From: a bacterium
GTDB taxonomy: Bacteria > Zhuqueibacterota > QNDG01 > JAFGCO01
Assembly (NCBI GenBank): GCA_016932575.1
Contig: JAFGCO010000058.1
Span: 1-19,056 of the forward strand
Reading direction: 5' to 3'
Length of the DNA: 19,056 nt
Below, in pieces: positions 6,528-17,565 of the stretch (its first letter is position 1; every line of letters starts with the position of its first letter). The translations under genes were made by a program, and so were the position numbers. Under the pieces are notes generated by a model. That model searched no databases. It was not told the DNA's origin and saw only the letters and a list, made by a program, of their open reading frames with translations.

Positions 6528-8201
6528 ATGAATAAAAATAACAATTACAAGGGACGATTCATTGGGCTAAAAAAGACCGGATTTTGCAGTCTGCTTCTTT
6601 TATTATTATCGTCCATTTTGCAGGCCGGTTTTCACATGAAATGGGTCGAAGTGGATGTAGTGCTGGATGCGGACGGGAAAGCCTGGATTGCCTATGCGGT
6701 TCGCTGGTCCTGCAGGAACGCCGATCTGCATGGATTCTACTTTGAAGGATTCGCCGGCATTCCTGTTTTCGATGATCAAAATGCCTATGCGCTGGATCAG
6801 AATCAAGTCCGGTATCCTGTGGAGATACACGAAATCACTTCCCGCAAATATGATATTATTCTGGCCAATGGTCAGGCTTTCAGTGATGGCGAGATTACCT
6901 ATTTCTTTCGGTACGCCACGGATCTTGAAGCAAGCGGCAATGTGACGCAAACACAATATGGTAATGACGTTCTGGCTGTTTTTAACTGGGCACCGGTGCA
7001 ATGGTCGGAAGCCCTGGATCACGAGACTGTGATTGTTCATTATCCGATTCTTCTTCCCGGCGAGATGGTGACAGAAGGGGATCTTGAAACATACCGGTTT
7101 ATGACAGAAAAGTATGTCAATCAGCGTTATTTGATGGATTTCCCGGCAGTTCGCAATCGGCAGGGAGAGTCCGTATTCACTGTCAGGTTTCATCGCGCGA
7201 ATATCGGCAAACGATATCATTTTCAGATTCAAACCTATATCGATGCCAAATATTTTCAGCTGAACACCATGGCTCCCAGGCGGGCTGGAGGCAAGGTTGA
7301 AGGGTTTCAACAGGCTGAAGAGCGATTTATTCTGAATCGGTTTTTTCCGGGCAGTGTTTTTTCCCGTCTTCCCATGCGGTCTGGTGAATTGTTAATTCTG
7401 GCAGGCGGATTTGGCATTTTGTTTGTATTGTTTCCGGTTTTTATTATGACCCGGAAACATCGTTCCATGCTGGTTGCAAGAGAAGGAATCGAGCGTGTTA
7501 ACTGGGATGGCAATGAATGGATCCCCCCGAAATTGCAGGTCGGATCGTTTCGCAAATCCGGGAAGGTTTTTAAAACCCTTGACATGCTGGAGGCAGGACT
7601 TCTGCTGGATGTTCCTTTAACCACACTTCTGGGTATTATGCTTGCCGGCCTTGAGGATTCAGGCAAAATTAAAATCGAGAAACTGGAGCCCGAACTGATG
7701 ATTCATAAAATGCCTGACGCGAGATCGGACAATGTATATGAGAAGATGCTTCTTTCTTCGATTCGTGATGACGGCGTTTTATCTCAGGCCTCCTTAAATC
7801 GGATTTTTCAAGCTGCCGGGTCTGGTCTTGAACAGAAAATCTGGGATTCGGATCTTGAGGCGACCAAAGACTATTACAGAAAAAAAATGAAATTTGAAAC
7901 TGTATCCGCAGGCGAAACGTGCCCGGACACACGTCAATATCGGAGCCCGCATCCCGGGCAATTTTATCATTCTCATTATGCGCGCGCCAATGAAATATCG
8001 CAATCCTGTTCAAGACAATTCGAATCCATTCAGCATAATTTTTCCACATTTCGATCCACACCGGCCTGCTATGAGGGGCCTTTTTTACAGAATGTATGTC
8101 ATGATGCATGCCACTCTGCCTGTCATTCCGCCTGTCATTCTGCCTGCCATTCAGCATGTCATGGGGCGTGCCATGGCGCGTGTGTGAGCAGCGGACATTA
8201 A
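6528..8201 (+). CDS. DUF2207-like membrane protein with C-terminal Cys-His-x-Ala repeat tail
   Basis: This 557-aa protein starts at an ATG preceded by AAGGTGG. A hydrophobic segment at 19-33 looks like a signal peptide or N-terminal anchor. Residues about 36-245 form a beta-rich extracytoplasmic domain resembling the N-terminal part of DUF2207 (PF09972). A transmembrane helix lies at about 288-307 (LLILAGGFGILFVLFPVFIM) before MTRKHR. A cytosolic part follows, with a stretch like the DUF2207 core (LEAGLLLDVPLTTLLGIMLAGLEDSGKIKI, here described as residues 354-383). After a polar His/Cys-containing linker (about 460-520), the protein ends in seven CH-x-A units (x = D, S, S, S, S, G, G; residues 524-551) and then CVSSGH. 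The predicted topology puts the tail in the cytosol. The next genes encode an RRE-bearing radical SAM enzyme and a membrane protein, suggesting the tail is modified. The family call rests on pattern recognition; function is unknown. Confidence 0.85.
   Translation: MNKNNNYKGRFIGLKKTGFCSLLLLLLSSILQAGFHMKWVEVDVVLDADGKAWIAYAVRWSCRNADLHGFYFEGFAGIPVFDDQNAYALDQNQVRYPVEIHEITSRKYDIILANGQAFSDGEITYFFRYATDLEASGNVTQTQYGNDVLAVFNWAPVQWSEALDHETVIVHYPILLPGEMVTEGDLETYRFMTEKYVNQRYLMDFPAVRNRQGESVFTVRFHRANIGKRYHFQIQTYIDAKYFQLNTMAPRRAGGKVEGFQQAEERFILNRFFPGSVFSRLPMRSGELLILAGGFGILFVLFPVFIMTRKHRSMLVAREGIERVNWDGNEWIPPKLQVGSFRKSGKVFKTLDMLEAGLLLDVPLTTLLGIMLAGLEDSGKIKIEKLEPELMIHKMPDARSDNVYEKMLLSSIRDDGVLSQASLNRIFQAAGSGLEQKIWDSDLEATKDYYRKKMKFETVSAGETCPDTRQYRSPHPGQFYHSHYARANEISQSCSRQFESIQHNFSTFRSTPACYEGPFLQNVCHDACHSACHSACHSACHSACHGACHGACVSSGH
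8097..8180 (+). repeat. Seven 12-bp coding repeats (CH-x-A tail)
   Basis: Seven in-frame 12-bp units encode Cys-His-x-Ala. The DNA units differ mainly at synonymous sites: Ala is GCA, GCC, GCC, GCC, GCA, GCG, GCG; Ser is TCT, TCC, TCT, TCA; Cys alternates TGT and TGC. The peptide is more conserved than the DNA. Confidence 0.9.
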
Positions 8202-8224
8202 TGAGAATCAGGAAGGAAGACAAT

Positions 8225-8264
8225 GAGTCTTAGAGTCCTTGTGTCGTTGAGTCATAGAGTCGTA
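8225..8264. repeat. 8-bp-period tandem repeat (GAGTC-based)
   Basis: GAGTC recurs at 8225, 8233, 8249 and 8257, with the variant GTGTC at 8241, an exact 8-bp period over five units (GAGTCTTA, GAGTCCTT, GTGTCGTT, GAGTCATA, GAGTCGTA). Just downstream GAAACAGGT occurs twice, 19 bp apart (8279 and 8298). The block lies in the 170-bp gap between the DUF2207-like gene and the radical SAM gene. Function unknown. Confidence 0.75.
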
Positions 8265-8371
8265 GACAAAAGAATCAAGAAACAGGTGTGTCGTCCTGAA
8301 ACAGGTTGAGTCCCGGAATTAAATAAAGATCACATTATTTGCGTATTGTTATCAGTATAAAAGAGGAAATC

Positions 8372-9700
8372 ATGTCTTATCTTGAAAACATTGGGTGGGT
8401 TGACGATTACCTGCATCAGATACAGCCGTTTATTTTTATACGGGAAGACGATCAGCTTCTGATAAAGATACCCAATGAGGCATATAAACTTAATTCGCAG
8501 GGCGTTCGGATTCTGCAACATTTTTTTCAGGGAGGCAATGTTCAACAGATCATTGAAGCTTATGACAATCCGGAAAAAGTCGCCAGGGATATTCATTATT
8601 TTTTTTGTGATTTGAAACTTCTGCTGAAAGGATGCTTCCGTGAAAAGTGTGAGTATCGCGGTATCGAAAAAATTAACTTTGGACTGCAGTTTCAAAAGTT
8701 GCCGGTACTCAGTGAAGTGGCCCTTACTTATCGGTGCAATCTTCGCTGCCGGTTCTGTTATGCAAGTTGTGGCTGCCGGCGTTCTGATCAGGAATATGAA
8801 ATGAACACTCAGGAGGTGTTTAAAGTTTTAGAAAGAATCCGGTATGAAGCGCAGGTGCCCTCTGTCAGTTTTACCGGCGGAGAACCCGTTTTAAGAAAGG
8901 ACCTGCTTGATATTGTCCGCCATGCCAAATCTCTGTCCATGTGGACCAACCTGATCACCAATGGATCTCGAATCACTCCTGAGCTGGCAGATGCGCTTAA
9001 AGAAGAGGGCCTGGATTCCGCGCAGGTCAGTCTGGAGGCAGGAACGCCTGAGCTGCATGATGATATTGTTCAACACCAGGGTGCATTCCGGAAGACTCTT
9101 GACGGATTGTATGCATTGAAATCTGCCGGTATTCGTGTGCATACAAATACAACGATTTCCGCAATGAATAAGGATTGCCTCGCGGATATTCTCAACATTG
9201 TAAAACAGTCCGGATTGGATAAATTATCCATGAATTTACTCATGCCCGCAGGATCATCGCTTCAGTCCCTGGATCAGTTACTCGTTTCCTATTCCGAGAT
9301 CGGGGATATCGTACTCAGAATAAAGGAACTGGCAGAATCGATGCAGCTTGAGTTTATGTGGTATTCGCCTACGCCAATCTGTCTTTTCAATCCGATTATA
9401 CACGGTCTGGGCAACAAAGCCTGTGCCGCATGTGATGGTTTACTGAGTATTGCTCCAAATGGGGATGTGCTGCCCTGTTCCAGCTATCCTGAATCTGTGG
9501 GCAATTTACTGGATCAAAATGTTTCATTTGAAGACTTATGGCATTCAGAGAAAGTGCTTTATTTTCAGCAAAAGGCGTTTGCCCATGAAAAATGTCAGCA
9601 ATGTGAGCATTTAACTGTCTGCCAGGGCGGATGCCCCTTATACTGGCAGCATGTGGGTTATCATGAAATATTGGAGGATGATTATGTCCTGGTATCCTGA
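8372..9700 (+). CDS. Radical SAM/SPASM peptide-maturase-like enzyme with N-terminal PqqD-like (RRE) domain
   Basis: The 442-aa protein starts at the ATG at 8372, with AGAGGA four bases upstream; the frame extends to a TTG at 8339 that has no such site. Residues about 18-88 resemble PqqD, the RiPP recognition element that binds peptide substrates (YKLNSQGVRILQHFF...VQQIIEAY). The radical SAM core has CxxxCxxC at Cys122, Cys126 and Cys129 and GGEP at 169-172. The C-terminal SPASM domain has Cys351, Cys354 and Cys369, then the canonical CX2CX5CX3C at Cys408, 411, 417 and 421, for auxiliary Fe-S clusters. This RRE + rSAM + SPASM layout is typical of enzymes that crosslink or modify ribosomal peptides (PqqE, sactipeptide and ranthipeptide enzymes). 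The upstream gene's Cys/His repeat tail is the obvious candidate substrate. The downstream gene overlaps the end of this one, so the two are translationally coupled. The exact reaction cannot be told from sequence; an anaerobic sulfatase-maturase-like role is less likely with no sulfatase nearby. Confidence 0.93.
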   Translation: MSYLENIGWVDDYLHQIQPFIFIREDDQLLIKIPNEAYKLNSQGVRILQHFFQGGNVQQIIEAYDNPEKVARDIHYFFCDLKLLLKGCFREKCEYRGIEKINFGLQFQKLPVLSEVALTYRCNLRCRFCYASCGCRRSDQEYEMNTQEVFKVLERIRYEAQVPSVSFTGGEPVLRKDLLDIVRHAKSLSMWTNLITNGSRITPELADALKEEGLDSAQVSLEAGTPELHDDIVQHQGAFRKTLDGLYALKSAGIRVHTNTTISAMNKDCLADILNIVKQSGLDKLSMNLLMPAGSSLQSLDQLLVSYSEIGDIVLRIKELAESMQLEFMWYSPTPICLFNPIIHGLGNKACAACDGLLSIAPNGDVLPCSSYPESVGNLLDQNVSFEDLWHSEKVLYFQQKAFAHEKCQQCEHLTVCQGGCPLYWQHVGYHEILEDDYVLVS

Positions 9701-10637
9701 TCCTGAACAGCGGGGTGATATACAGTTCGTTTTTATGAAGAGCTGGCCTTATAATATACGAATGGCTGTTATTATGATCATCATGTTTTTCGGAATTCTT
9801 GTTCAGTTATTTGTCAATTTTTGGGCAGGCCTGGTTTTTCTTTTTTCAGGAACGCTTTTAGGCATAATCAGGGGATATCATTCAAAGCCCGTAATAAAAC
9901 GCGGAGAAACCTGGAATCGTGTGACTCCGGATGAATTGAAAAAGGTCATCGAAAAAGAGAAACAATTAAAATCATGGGATCGGGACGCCTTTGATATTAC
10001 CAACAAGACGGGATGTCTGATTTTCTTTCTGTTGATTATTGCCTTTATCTTCCTTTTCGGAATGATTGGCAGGTGGATTTCCTTTAAGCTTGCTGTTTAT
10101 GTTTGCATCAATGCAGTCGTTGTGATTGCTCCTCACTGGTTTACAGGTGTACGTACCTATTTGAAGCAAGATACGCTGATCCTCAAAATACATCTTTTAC
10201 AAGCCATTATGAAGGTTCTAGAAGCAAATAGCGAGATTCAGGTGCATCCCATGCTGTCTGTTCAAAAAACAAAAAAGAACAGACAGGTTCCAAAGGATGC
10301 CCGGTTGATGATCCGGATGATTCAGGCACCTGAGGATTTTCTGGGAATTCAGGTTCAGGTTGCAATAAATACAGTGCAGGGTACGAAATATCCTTATCTT
10401 TACTGTGTGCTTCTAGCCCAGGAAAAGGCAGGATTGTTAAATCAAAAACGATCAATAATATCGCCCTCTCCGAAAGTTGTTCTTTCTCAGAGTCACAGTG
10501 AGGGCGTGGATGTTCTGGTTGTCCGGCAGAAAACATCGAAAAATTCAGGATATCATACAAATGATAAAGCCGCCATCCATGTGGTTGATTCTGCTCTCAA
10601 CCTTGCACGGGATCTGCTGGGTGGAAAAGCCTCTTGA
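9684..10637 (+). CDS. Uncharacterised four-helix membrane protein coupled to the radical SAM gene
   Basis: This 317-aa protein starts at an ATG with GGAGG six bases upstream (9673-9677), lying inside the 3' end of the radical SAM gene; the 17-bp overlap implies coupled translation. Predicted membrane helices are at about 27-45, 47-63, 109-129 and 132-150, in two hairpins joined by a charged cytosolic loop (about 64-108, rich in Lys and Glu). The C-terminal half (about 155-317) is soluble and mixed alpha/beta, with a basic patch KTKKNRQVPKDAR. I recognise no family and see no ATPase, protease or transporter motif. Its coupling suggests it serves the same process as the radical SAM enzyme, for example by holding it at the membrane next to the DUF2207-like protein; that is inference. 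The frame can be read from a GTG at 9651, but that lacks a ribosome binding site. Confidence 0.85.
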   Translation: MSWYPDPEQRGDIQFVFMKSWPYNIRMAVIMIIMFFGILVQLFVNFWAGLVFLFSGTLLGIIRGYHSKPVIKRGETWNRVTPDELKKVIEKEKQLKSWDRDAFDITNKTGCLIFFLLIIAFIFLFGMIGRWISFKLAVYVCINAVVVIAPHWFTGVRTYLKQDTLILKIHLLQAIMKVLEANSEIQVHPMLSVQKTKKNRQVPKDARLMIRMIQAPEDFLGIQVQVAINTVQGTKYPYLYCVLLAQEKAGLLNQKRSIISPSPKVVLSQSHSEGVDVLVVRQKTSKNSGYHTNDKAAIHVVDSALNLARDLLGGKAS

Positions 10638-10664
10638 TTAATAAGCCGTGCCTGCCGGTCCCGC

Positions 10665-10740
10665 TATAAATATATCGTCCCTGCGGGACTTGGATTTTAG
10701 ATGATTGGGGTGGCTATAAATATGTTGTCCCTGCGGGACA
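10665..10740 (-). repeat. Two REP-like palindromic repeats, minus orientation
   Basis: Copies at 10665-10691 and 10715-10740, read on the minus strand, are AAGTCCC-GCA-GGGAC followed by an AT-rich tail (GATATATTTATAG in the first). Their GTCCC cores are exactly 50 bp apart (10677 and 10727). The first copy, with its tail, matches the plus-orientation copy at 10971 almost base for base. Confidence 0.85.
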
Positions 10741-10766
10741 AAAGGAAAAATATATGTTTTCGTTTG

Positions 10767-10840
10767 GGGATGTTTTCATATGTATCAAATAGGGCGTTTA
10801 TTTTTTCGATACATTATGTATAACATAAAACGAACATCCC
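10767..10840. repeat. Imperfect 74-bp inverted repeat at the centre of the REP cluster
   Basis: Outer arms GGGATGTT (10767-10774) and AACATCCC (10833-10840) and inner arms ATGTATC (10780-10786) and GATACAT (10808-10814) are inverse complements, with a 21-nt AT-rich loop and asymmetric bulges. It sits between the oppositely oriented repeat groups. Confidence 0.6.
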
Positions 10841-10876
10841 GTTTATAAATTTCTTGGGATTTAAAACTCAGCGGAT

Positions 10877-11048
10877 CCTGTAAGGGACGAAATGTTTATT
10901 GAAAATATGATCCGTTCATTAAGTCCCTTTAGGGACGGAATGTTTATAGCGAAATGTATAGTCTATGTGTTAAGTCCCGTCAGGGACGATATATTTATAG
11001 AAAACGCACAGAAACCAAGTTTAGTCCCTTTAGGGACGAAATAGATAG
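10877..11048 (+). repeat. Four REP-like palindromic repeats, plus orientation, about 50-bp period
   Basis: Copies lie at 10877-10899 (left arm degenerate), 10919-10949, 10971-11000 and 11021-11048. Consensus: a palindrome AGTCCC-N3-4-GGGACG, then an AT-rich tail such as GAAATGTTTATAG. GGGAC cores are at 10884, 10932, 10983 and 11033, so spacing is 48, 51 and 50 bp with unrelated spacers of about 20 bp. This resembles REP/BIME elements mobilised by REP-associated tyrosine transposases; no such gene is in the window. Confidence 0.85.
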
Positions 11049-11246
11049 TGCAACAGTACGGGCTATTTCAAAATATGGGATTGACCGTTGGTTTTTAGAC
11101 GTCTATGGAGGCCACTGTAATAAATACCTGGTGTAGAGGATTGCAATATCAATATTCGTGGATTTATCGATATGAGCATGATAAAAATCAGGGAGGATCT
11201 GTTCGTTGCGTGATGAATTGAGTTATCGATTTCTGGAGAAACAGGA

Positions 11247-14177: not shown

Positions 14178-17100
14178 TTATCTCACAAAGGTCATTTTCT
14201 TTATCTGGTGATACTGCCTGCTATCGGATTTGACACTGATCTGATAAATGTAAATTCCTGACGGCATGATTCTGCCTGTTTTATCACAGCCGTCCCATGT
14301 CACCCCGTGATATCCGGCATTTTTATGATGTTCCACCAGTCGGATGACTTCTCGTCCCTGTATGTCATAAATAGAGATTGTTGCCTCCGCGTCATGCGGT
14401 AATTGATACTGGATTGTCGTTGCCGGATTAAACGGATTGGGATAGTTCTGAGACAGCTTAAATGATTCTGGAATTTTTATTTCAGAAGATGTGCGATTCC
14501 CTTCCATATGGGTCGGTAAGATATCAATGATATTGACCTTATAGTCTTCCACCTCGCCACTGATATAATCCCAGGTGGGATTGCAGCTGCCGCTAAGATG
14601 ATTATACCGGAACCGTGCATATGTGAATCCCGGAACAGCATCATCAGGCACTGAAAAGGTCAGTGAATGTGTTCCCGTCGTCAGGAGAACGCTATCAAAT
14701 ATTCTGTCTTCTACGGCTTTTGGATTATTCAAATCCCAGCCGAAATCCTGTTTGAAATCGATCCAGGCACTTAAATATCCGGTACCTGTTGCTATTACCT
14801 GGATAGTGGCTGTTTCTCCCGCAATCAGATCAGGAATGATAACGCCGTCATCATCGTCAATACCGTCCAGATCATCGCCTGTTGCATCGCTGTTCGGCTG
14901 TCCGTCAGGGTCAGTATCGACTGTATCACCCAGGAACACCCGATGAGTGTTATAGTTCCAGCAACGGTGAGAAGCACCGTAATTTGCGCCATAAGTTGGA
15001 TATGAATTGACTGTACCATCATCCGGCAGATCCCCAAAATCAAACTGTGACGGGTACCACCAGCCCATAAGACCCGTGGTATAATCTTCCACTTCGCCAT
15101 TACTCGCATACCCTTCGTAAGTTAAGTCGGGATCAGAGCTGTAACGGAATCGTGAGTTTGCAATGATTGTAGTGTAACCGGGATCACAATAGACAGGGAG
15201 CATATAAATCCCGTCACTCAGCATAATGTCATCGAAAATATGATCATCCGGATCATTAAAATCGCCGTCCCAATTAAAATCAAGCCACCCATTGAGATAA
15301 CCATTACCGCGTACACTCACACGAAAGTAGACAGTATCTCCGCCAATCAAATGGGTCGGAAATCTTATACCATCCTCATCATCCAGGTCATGATCATCGT
15401 CACCATCCGAGTATACGGTCATATAGGCTTCATTTTCACCATCCACTGTGTCACCCAGAAAAACAACGGGTGATATGGCATGACGCGGACCATTGTCCGC
15501 GAGATAGGTCGGGTACATACAGAGGGTTGAGTAGTCCGGATACGTTGTGTTCCACGGCGCATCTCCATAATCCAGCTCGACATGAATGATGTTTACCAGA
15601 TAATCCTCCACTTCTCCGTCTGCAGCCAATCCCATGGAACTGACAACGGGCTGTGAACTCAGACGAAACCGCGCGTAAGAGATTCCGGTGTCCAGATCGG
15701 ATGAGACGTTAAAAGCCAGATTGTGGGTGCCGGTCGAGATCGGAATTTGATTTAAAATCAGATTACCTTCGTCTTCCCAGCTGTTGTTCCGGTTAAAGTC
15801 GATCCAGCCGGTGAGATACCCGGTCCCATGGACTTTGACTTGAATCGTATTGGGATGTCCGATACAGATATCTCCAATGGTGATGCCGTCTTCATCGTCT
15901 CCCTGATCGTCTTCATCATCTCCTTGCGCGTCGGAATCGGGCTGACCATTCGCATCTCCATCCACTTTGTCTCCCAGATAAAGCTGATCGCTTATCGTAT
16001 GCCGCGCACCGTTATTCGCATGCAGTGTGGGATATCCGACGTTTTCTATCGGATCAAAAGGCGCATCCCCGTAATCCTGAAAGAGGTGACTGAGGTGAAC
16101 CTGATAATCCTCCACCTCACCATCCGGTGCCAATCCGATGGAACCGAGGTTCGGATCTGTGCTGTACCGGAACCGGGCAAATGTGATTCCAGTGTCTACG
16201 CCTGCCGGCACTGTAAAGGTCAGATCATAGGAACCGGTTGAAAACGAAAGGTTTTGAATGATATGGTCTTCCGTGTCTGTCCAGCTGCTGTTCCGGTTAA
16301 AATCGATCCACCCGTTGAAGTAACCGGACCCATAAAGTTTTGCCTGAATTGTATTTGTAATACCAATCTTCAGTTCGCCAACGGTGATTCCATCTTCATC
16401 ATCTCCGTTTGAATCCGTGTCATCTCCGGTTGCGTCGCTGTTGACATACGCCTCCATCTCTCCATCAAGATCATCTCCCATGAAAACCTCATCGTTCAGA
16501 ATGTGTCTGGCACCGTTATGCGCCAGAACCGTTAAATACAGCCATCCCGCGTTCAAGTCGAATGGCGCGTCGCCAAAATCGAGATACGGAAAGGAGATAT
16601 GAACCCGGTAATCTTCCACCTCTCCATCTTCTGCCTCTCCTGTAACATCAAGGAAGCGCTCTGTGCTGTATCGGAATCGCGCAAAGGTATATCCTGTATC
16701 TGCATCAGAAGGAACAGTAAAAGAGAGAGTGCTGATGCCCGGAGATAATCCCATATTATTGAAAATCTGTTCGTTGGGTTCATCCCAGTCTCCGTCGCGG
16801 TTGAAGTCGATCCACCCGAAGAAATGTCCTGTACCCGCAGCAATGACTTCGATCTCGCAGAGCAGATCCACCAGCAATTCGGGAATTGTTACGCCATCCT
16901 CGTCATCGTCATCCACAAGATCGTCGCCGGTTGCAAATGGGCTTGGATATCCGTCATCCTCATTATCGATTAAATCTCCCAGATGGATAAAGAAGTCGAG
17001 ACGATGGCGCGCCCCATTCAATGCGAGAACCGTTGGATATGAATGATTTTCCGGTAAATTATAAGGGGCGTCGCCAAAATCAAGCCTTGGGGGCCAGACA

Positions 17101-17450
17101 TCGATATAGTGTGTTTTGGTCTCTGTATCCACGTCCTGCTGGGCCACTGACGTGCCTATGACTGTCAATGAGACATTATAGGTTCCCTGTGTATGGTAGG
17201 TTACCTGATGCGGTCCCTGTCCGGTGGCACTTGCAGGCCATCCGCCCGGGAATTCCCAGGTCCAGGATGAAATGCTGCCGGTTGACTGATCAGTAAATTC
17301 CACGGTTAAGGTGGCATAACCCGAAGTAGGATCTCCCGCAAAATCGGCGGTGACGTCTGCATAGAGTCGGGAGTTTCCAATTATTCCAATAAATACATAT
17401 AATAGGAAACGGTTGCTTGTTTTTCGGTTAATAAGATCAATTGAATGCAT
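14178..17450 (-). CDS. Secreted PKD + five GEVEDY repeat protein with type IX C-terminal sorting domain
   Basis: The 1090-aa protein starts at the ATG at 17450, with GGAGG eight bases upstream; the frame also allows a GTG at 17465, but that overlaps the ribosome binding site. A signal peptide (about 10-31, RFLLYVFIGIIG...LYA) is followed by a PKD domain (about 35-120, FTDQSTGSISSWTWEFPGG). Five tandem GEVEDY domains of about 170 residues follow; each runs DFGDAP...NGARH...(L)GD..D...Asp-rich..GWIDFN...ARFRYS...GEVEDY, with GEVEDY at 276, 444, 612, 785 and 965. The Asp-rich DDDDEDG-type loops probably bind calcium. The last about 95 residues (LSQNYPNPFNP...IYDIQGREV...SGIYIYQI...KKM) are the sorting domain of type IX secretion substrates, so the protein is likely exported to the surface. 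It has its own candidate promoter at 17566-17594. Likely a structural or adhesive surface protein; the ligand is unknown. Confidence 0.95.
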   Translation of the reverse strand: MHSIDLINRKTSNRFLLYVFIGIIGNSRLYADVTADFAGDPTSGYATLTVEFTDQSTGSISSWTWEFPGGWPASATGQGPHQVTYHTQGTYNVSLTVIGTSVAQQDVDTETKTHYIDVWPPRLDFGDAPYNLPENHSYPTVLALNGARHRLDFFIHLGDLIDNEDDGYPSPFATGDDLVDDDDEDGVTIPELLVDLLCEIEVIAAGTGHFFGWIDFNRDGDWDEPNEQIFNNMGLSPGISTLSFTVPSDADTGYTFARFRYSTERFLDVTGEAEDGEVEDYRVHISFPYLDFGDAPFDLNAGWLYLTVLAHNGARHILNDEVFMGDDLDGEMEAYVNSDATGDDTDSNGDDEDGITVGELKIGITNTIQAKLYGSGYFNGWIDFNRNSSWTDTEDHIIQNLSFSTGSYDLTFTVPAGVDTGITFARFRYSTDPNLGSIGLAPDGEVEDYQVHLSHLFQDYGDAPFDPIENVGYPTLHANNGARHTISDQLYLGDKVDGDANGQPDSDAQGDDEDDQGDDEDGITIGDICIGHPNTIQVKVHGTGYLTGWIDFNRNNSWEDEGNLILNQIPISTGTHNLAFNVSSDLDTGISYARFRLSSQPVVSSMGLAADGEVEDYLVNIIHVELDYGDAPWNTTYPDYSTLCMYPTYLADNGPRHAISPVVFLGDTVDGENEAYMTVYSDGDDDHDLDDEDGIRFPTHLIGGDTVYFRVSVRGNGYLNGWLDFNWDGDFNDPDDHIFDDIMLSDGIYMLPVYCDPGYTTIIANSRFRYSSDPDLTYEGYASNGEVEDYTTGLMGWWYPSQFDFGDLPDDGTVNSYPTYGANYGASHRCWNYNTHRVFLGDTVDTDPDGQPNSDATGDDLDGIDDDDGVIIPDLIAGETATIQVIATGTGYLSAWIDFKQDFGWDLNNPKAVEDRIFDSVLLTTGTHSLTFSVPDDAVPGFTYARFRYNHLSGSCNPTWDYISGEVEDYKVNIIDILPTHMEGNRTSSEIKIPESFKLSQNYPNPFNPATTIQYQLPHDAEATISIYDIQGREVIRLVEHHKNAGYHGVTWDGCDKTGRIMPSGIYIYQISVKSDSRQYHQIKKMTFVR

Positions 17451-17565
17451 GACAAATTCCTCCACAGATCAATGAAAACAAAGGTTGACAACTCAGTGTC
17501 GTCGGAGGAAATTCAGGATTGAATCAAATGAAGTTGAAGAACAGAAATCAATGAAATGTTAATTT

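Follow-up and report, generated by a model that had tools for sequence, protein, structure and literature searches.

A contig from a bacterium of the phylum Zhuqueibacterota (GenBank assembly GCA_016932575.1, contig JAFGCO010000058.1) carries three adjacent open reading frames (ORFs) on its + strand, at positions 6528-10637 of the window, by which we mean the whole 19,056-nucleotide stretch analyzed. They encode a membrane protein remotely related to DUF2207 whose C-terminal tail repeats the motif Cys-His-Xaa-Ala (CHxA), a radical S-adenosylmethionine (SAM)/SPASM enzyme, and a second membrane protein. Sequence comparison makes it highly probable that this enzyme modifies the tail while the tail is part of the membrane protein. 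This reading draws on the constant adjacency of the two genes and their co-occurrence in genomes, the invariance of the tail, ordinary DUF2207 genes as a control, the joint change of tail type and enzyme clade, PqqD matches in sister enzymes, the enzyme's relatives among maturases of ribosomally synthesized and post-translationally modified peptides (RiPPs), and the predicted cytosolic location of the tail.

The CHxA tail and its partner enzyme

An earlier, sequence-only reading of this DNA had described seven CHxA units plus CVSSGH at the end of the first gene, and the translation of the ORF at 6528-8201 agrees: the tail, encoded at 8097-8198, reads CHDA(CHSA)4(CHGA)2CVSSGH (C-terminus, CHDACHSACHSACHSACHSACHGACHGACVSSGH). 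Among 24 homologous genes, the six aligned CHxA units and the following Cys show no change of Cys, His, or Ala; the x position is occupied only by Ser, Gly, Asp, or Ala, and the first unit is always CHDA. Pairwise codon comparison of these tails gave 3708 synonymous versus 423 nonsynonymous differences, all of the latter at x, and mean pairwise identity is 94% in the tail versus 44% in the remainder of the protein. By this measure the tail is under strong purifying selection. Its DNA does consist of tandem 12-nt units, as would a functionless low-complexity repeat arising by slippage next to a coincidental neighbor, but the units have diverged in DNA with their residues unchanged, and the association with the enzyme holds at every locus tested; the conservation data refute such an artefact, to which we assign practically no probability.

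Directly before the tail lies a linker (8049-8096, about FSTFRSTPACYEGPFL) in which F508, S511, and C514 are invariant or nearly so in the alignment. Conserved together with the enzyme partner, it is possibly the segment that the enzyme recognizes. One genome (L112:4605-6344, also present as L067) has a natural short-tail variant, CHDACHSACHSACVSAGH, with three CHxA units and the full three-gene cassette; it shows that tail length can vary and would make a useful minimal substrate.

The enzyme, used as the query against public genome contigs, matched at 27 loci. All lie in metagenome-assembled genomes, with titles of Elusimicrobia, Omnitrophota, WOR-3/Stahlbacteria, Sumerlaeota, Auribacterota, Spirochaetes, Clostridia, and unnamed bacteria (group names here are those of the genome titles, which may be wrong, for example the one titled Clostridia). 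A CHxA-tailed homolog of gene 1 lies directly upstream of the enzyme at all 24 loci having upstream sequence, and a homolog of gene 3 lies downstream at 27 of 27. No other neighbor is shared across groups, so that only the three cassette genes are conserved, with no conserved protease, exporter, or regulator, and we found no alternative small precursor peptide paired with the enzyme. Pairwise identities of the three proteins co-vary (r = 0.95 to 0.96), the pattern to be expected if the genes are passed on, by descent or transfer, together. A plasmid search with the membrane protein gave zero matches. At one Elusimicrobia locus (L029:9343-9760) the enzyme is separated from gene 3 by a short extra ORF, which the other cassettes examined lack.

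Genome-wide surveys gave the same picture. Of 247 Elusimicrobia-group genomes, 14 carry both gene 1 and the enzyme and the other 233 carry neither; among 147 WOR-3-group genomes, 29 have both, none has the tail only, and 2 (G629 and G632) have the enzyme only, both explained by contig ends. The tail without the enzyme, which would have told against the link proposed in the sequence-only reading, was thus not seen in the 394 genomes surveyed with both queries. Fisher tests of co-occurrence gave 4e-23 and 1e-28 for the Elusimicrobia and WOR-3 groups, respectively, values that are not true probabilities given shared ancestry. Four more Auribacterota-group genomes have the same tail and partners, with gene 3 seen in the three whose contig reaches that far. 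In the window's own phylum, a close match to the enzyme occurs only in the window's own genome among 59 searched (next best E = 7e-33), so the distribution is patchy.

Several candidates were set aside. In G636 and G638 the tail gene appeared to lie 550-640 kb from the enzyme and gene 3; runs of N beside both the tail gene and the enzyme in these scaffolded contigs make a misjoin likely, and the two were left out of the linkage evidence, for or against. The tail-only matches L069-L072, from Elusimicrobia-group and WOR-3-group genomes, are unrelated low-complexity repeats (CLSVCLSV, ACLPACLP), and L102 and L111 have neither a Cys tail nor a cassette gene.

Ordinary DUF2207 proteins served as a control. 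Of 82 genomes from the phylum of the window, 46 have such proteins, the window's own genome not being among them. None of the 24 with a complete C-terminus has Cys in its last 60 residues, the tails being Gly/Ser-rich, and no radical SAM gene stands beside any of the 20 loci examined with flanks (at one of them a weak relative lies at a distance of 3.7 kb). Cys-tailed proteins thus lie beside the enzyme at 24/24 loci versus 0/20 for their Cys-free-tailed counterparts, as the proposed enzyme-tail link had predicted.

A sister type strengthens the case. The suggestion in the sequence-only reading that some DUF2207 relatives end in Cys/Ala-rich tails was borne out by six WOR-3-group genomes encoding a related membrane protein that ends in CACACACAGCACACAGGGR (five with the full tail, one broken inside the tail by a contig end). 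A related radical SAM/SPASM enzyme is adjacent in five of the six, and the sixth has it on another contig. In profile comparisons the CA-tailed and CHxA-tailed membrane proteins are homologous (E = 5e-21 over 378 columns), as are the two related clades formed by their enzymes (E = 1e-81). Tail type, CHxA or CA, therefore shifts together with enzyme clade, as expected if the enzyme acts on the tail. Gene 3 was not found at the sister-type loci. Most of these have instead, upstream, a gene for a small two-helix zinc-ribbon membrane protein, lying immediately 5' of the CA-tailed membrane protein gene at L106:3521-3949 and L110:7781-8134; given a weak PF20990 match (E = 0.017), it is possibly a piece detached from the C-terminal region of DUF2207. 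The CA-tail type was absent from 281 genomes of two further phylum samples, where the search instead yielded the four additional CHxA cassettes of the Auribacterota group mentioned above.

The three cassette proteins and their surroundings

Gene 1 (6528-8201, 557 aa) is single-copy per genome. Its product begins with a signal peptide, followed by an extracytoplasmic beta domain, one transmembrane helix (~285-322), a cytosolic domain, and the Cys-His tail; the beta domain is similar to those at the N-terminus of M1 aminopeptidases (Foldseek E = 3.5e-8). Hydropathy and the structural model place positive charges directly after the single membrane helix, followed by a cytosolic region, which argues for a tail on the cytosolic side. 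AlphaFold2 draws the tail itself as a helix with a predicted local distance difference test (pLDDT) score of about 35, i.e., with no confident structure. The label DUF2207-like given in the sequence-only reading holds as a remote relation of the family: Pfam DUF2207 (PF09972) does not match the window protein but matches 12 of 21 family members (best E 7e-5), and TIGR04222 likewise leaves the window protein unmatched and matches 4 of the 21 (best E 4e-5). Judged by these profiles, the family is a distant relative of DUF2207, remote but detectable, rather than a member. No NCBIfam model is above its cut-off for the window's gene 1 or gene 3, and Rfam has no match within the cassette.

Gene 2 (8372-9700, 442 aa; start codon ATG at 8372 set by alignment) encodes a radical SAM/SPASM enzyme by its Pfam matches: both the core, with CNLRCRFC as its CxxxCxxC motif (Radical_SAM, 104 bits; cut-off, 29.5), and the SPASM region (38.8 bits; cut-off, 21.5) exceed the cut-offs. 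The core cysteines are invariant in the alignment, as are seven in the SPASM region (C337, C351, C369, C408, C411, C417, and C421). No conserved Cys follows C421, so that the "full SPASM cysteine set" once ascribed to the enzyme was slightly overstated. The recognition domain also ascribed to it, a PqqD-like RiPP recognition element (RRE) at about residues 10-95, is less firmly placed than the other two: the window enzyme scores 17.1 bits, below the Pfam cut-off of 23.4. Five of 25 members of the CHxA-type enzyme family match PqqD at E<=0.1 (best 9e-5), and two of three sister-type enzymes are above the cut-off (24.4 and 25.3 bits). A PDB profile search for an RRE returned TfuB1, an RRE protein, at E = 0.008; it ranked behind evident noise (CFAP115, retroviral proteases) and carries little weight. 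The closest solved relatives of the whole enzyme include SkfB, PqqE, 5v1q, and 5wgg (E 1e-27 to 1e-16), of which we take 5v1q to be SuiB. The 5wgg structure is CteB (PMC7876137).

Gene 3 (9684-10637, 317 aa) overlaps gene 2, and the four-helix membrane protein noticed in the sequence-only reading is indeed predicted to have four helices; alignment of homologs moves its start from 9651 to 9684. Beyond that reading, gene 3 proves to accompany the other two genes constantly, and its product is predicted to have a chaperone-like domain on the cytosolic side. This C-terminal domain (~174-325 in the numbering of the longer ORF) was modeled mostly with good confidence (pLDDT 83), and the structures most like it are those of class I type III secretion chaperones and YbjN-like proteins (Foldseek E 0.02, prob 0.99). 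VIA gave Z 8.4 to SycT (root mean square deviation 3.1, 113 of 114 residues aligned) and Z 7.7 to Spa15; a VIA Z of 8 is at the edge of the range for unrelated folds, yet the top rows are repeatedly of one fold class. The model thus suggests a class I type III secretion chaperone/YbjN-like fold, a likeness seen in structure comparison. Secretion chaperones of this kind recognize stretches of peptide in extended form, and by analogy protein 3 may bind the tail.

Just 3' of gene 3 (10662-11050) lies a cluster of six short related copies, in both orientations, built on the palindrome GTCCCTnnnGGGAC, whose exact form has 5 matches in the window versus 0.01 expected and is almost absent from the rest of the genome. 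Two large - strand genes lie farther off. That at 1-2775 encodes a long protein with many leucine-rich repeats and two immunoglobulin-like domains and extends past the window edge; that at 14178-17465 encodes a large, likely secreted surface protein with five GEVED domains, a PKD domain, and an FlgD-like/type IX sorting C-terminus.

A model for tail maturation and its alternatives

We propose that the cassette is a dedicated protein-maturation unit. The PqqD-like N-terminal domain of the enzyme would bind the cytosolic C-terminal region of protein 1, and the enzyme would then modify the CHxA repeats in place, most likely by several cysteine-based crosslinks. Thioether formation from Cys is the usual outcome for PqqD/SPASM enzymes, and thioethers may be the bonds made here, with His-directed or Cys-Cys chemistry as a possible alternative; Cys thioethers installed by the enzyme would put the tail alongside sactipeptides and ranthipeptides. 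Protein 3, in the same membrane and with its chaperone-like domain on the same side, would hold or present the tail or cap the finished product. The modified tail would remain on the protein, perhaps forming a metal or redox site in the cytosol that is coupled through the membrane with the extracytoplasmic domain. A modified Cys/His ladder would most naturally serve as such a fixed site on the cytosolic face, although this is the weakest step of the model.

Several points weigh against modification of the tail. The system is known from sequence alone; association cannot separate modification of the tail from modification elsewhere on protein 1; shared ancestry inflates the co-occurrence counts; the PqqD match of the window enzyme falls short of the cut-off; and AlphaFold2 offers no confident tail structure. 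A run in which Cys alternates with His can bind metals well as it stands, and a sister-type locus also has the zinc-ribbon membrane protein upstream; both would fit an unmodified ladder for Zn, Ni, Cu, Fe-S, or heme, with the enzyme acting elsewhere on protein 1 or on protein 3. We regard this as unlikely: ordinary DUF2207 proteins lack both tail and enzyme, the tail is the constant part wherever the enzyme occurs, and its type changes with the enzyme clade. Less likely again is that protein 1 is a membrane-anchored precursor from which the modified tail is cleaved and released as a small RiPP natural product, a signal or an antimicrobial. Repeat cores, PqqD-like domains, and SPASM enzymes are typical of RiPP pathways, but a released product is hard to reconcile with cassette surroundings in which no protease or exporter gene is conserved from group to group, with a single-copy tail that is near-identical across phyla, unlike diversifying peptide products, and with the conservation of the other ~510 residues of protein 1.

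Relation to known systems

The closest published idea to the CHxA cassette is the pairing of TIGR04222 proteins with MNIO (DUF692) enzymes. There, too, a large membrane protein of the DUF2207/TIGR04222 neighborhood with a Cys-rich C-terminal tail is encoded beside an oxidative RiPP-type enzyme as its proposed substrate; the authors placed the Cys-rich segments in the periplasm, and the two kinds of gene are loosely associated, MNIO genes being absent from 490 of the 1372 genomes that have TIGR04222 genes (PMC12452194). That system thus has an iron oxidase and a Ser/Gly-rich periplasmic tail, whereas the CHxA cassette has a radical SAM/SPASM enzyme, a strict repeat predicted to lie on the cytosolic side, a third component, and an essentially complete association. 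Taken together, the two cases suggest that post-translational chemistry has targeted the tails of such proteins more than once. It is tempting to go further and assume both that the crosslinked cytosolic Cys-His ladder is a trans-membrane metal or redox device with a chaperone-like partner and that DUF2207/TIGR04222 proteins have repeatedly gained enzyme-modified Cys tails (CHxA and CA with radical SAM enzymes, Ser/Gly/Cys with MNIO), a combined reading that we hold tentatively and think somewhat more likely to fail than to stand. If true, tail maturation would be a general, unrecognized way to regulate or equip bacterial membrane proteins.

Canonical DUF2207 (YciQ-like) proteins share the plan of protein 1, with a signal peptide, an extracytoplasmic beta domain, a transmembrane helix, and a cytosolic domain; they differ in their Gly/Ser-rich, Cys-free C-termini and in lacking a radical SAM neighbor, and several of their loci have an upstream gene resembling LemA by eye. 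Among open-license papers, we found none that treats DUF2207 together with radical SAM and no published description of a tailed DUF2207-like protein paired with a radical SAM enzyme. The cassette may offer a function for one branch of this widespread, enigmatic superfamily.

The repeat itself recalls TIGR04117 (Syntroph_Cxxx, "Cys-Xaa-Xaa-Xaa repeat radical SAM target protein," NCBIfam), which also has a C-terminal repeat with Cys at every fourth residue. Weak, tail-only matches to this model were obtained for 17 of 21 family members (best E 0.004; window protein, 9.8 bits versus a cut-off of 50 bits), but the model is 98 residues long, i.e., describes a small protein. Size likewise sets the cassette apart from the homologous SPASM peptide maturases SkfB, PqqE, 5v1q, and 5wgg, which act on small free precursor peptides.

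In the maturation of quinohemoprotein amine dehydrogenase, as proposed here, the radical SAM target remains a protein and a partner protein assists. QhpD, a cytoplasmic radical SAM enzyme, forms several thioether crosslinks in QhpC, with a substrate-capturing partner promoting the reaction; unlike protein 1, QhpC is a small subunit whose leader is cleaved and whose bonds are Cys-to-Asp/Glu, and genes for a protease and an exporter belong to its operon (PMC7876137). QhpC has neither a membrane anchor nor a CHxA repeat. The CHxA cassette offers an enzyme and a probable substrate that lend themselves well to testing, with repeat chemistry that is likely to be new: RiPP-type radical SAM enzymes have mostly been studied on small free peptides, whereas here a membrane protein of ~550 residues appears to be the substrate.

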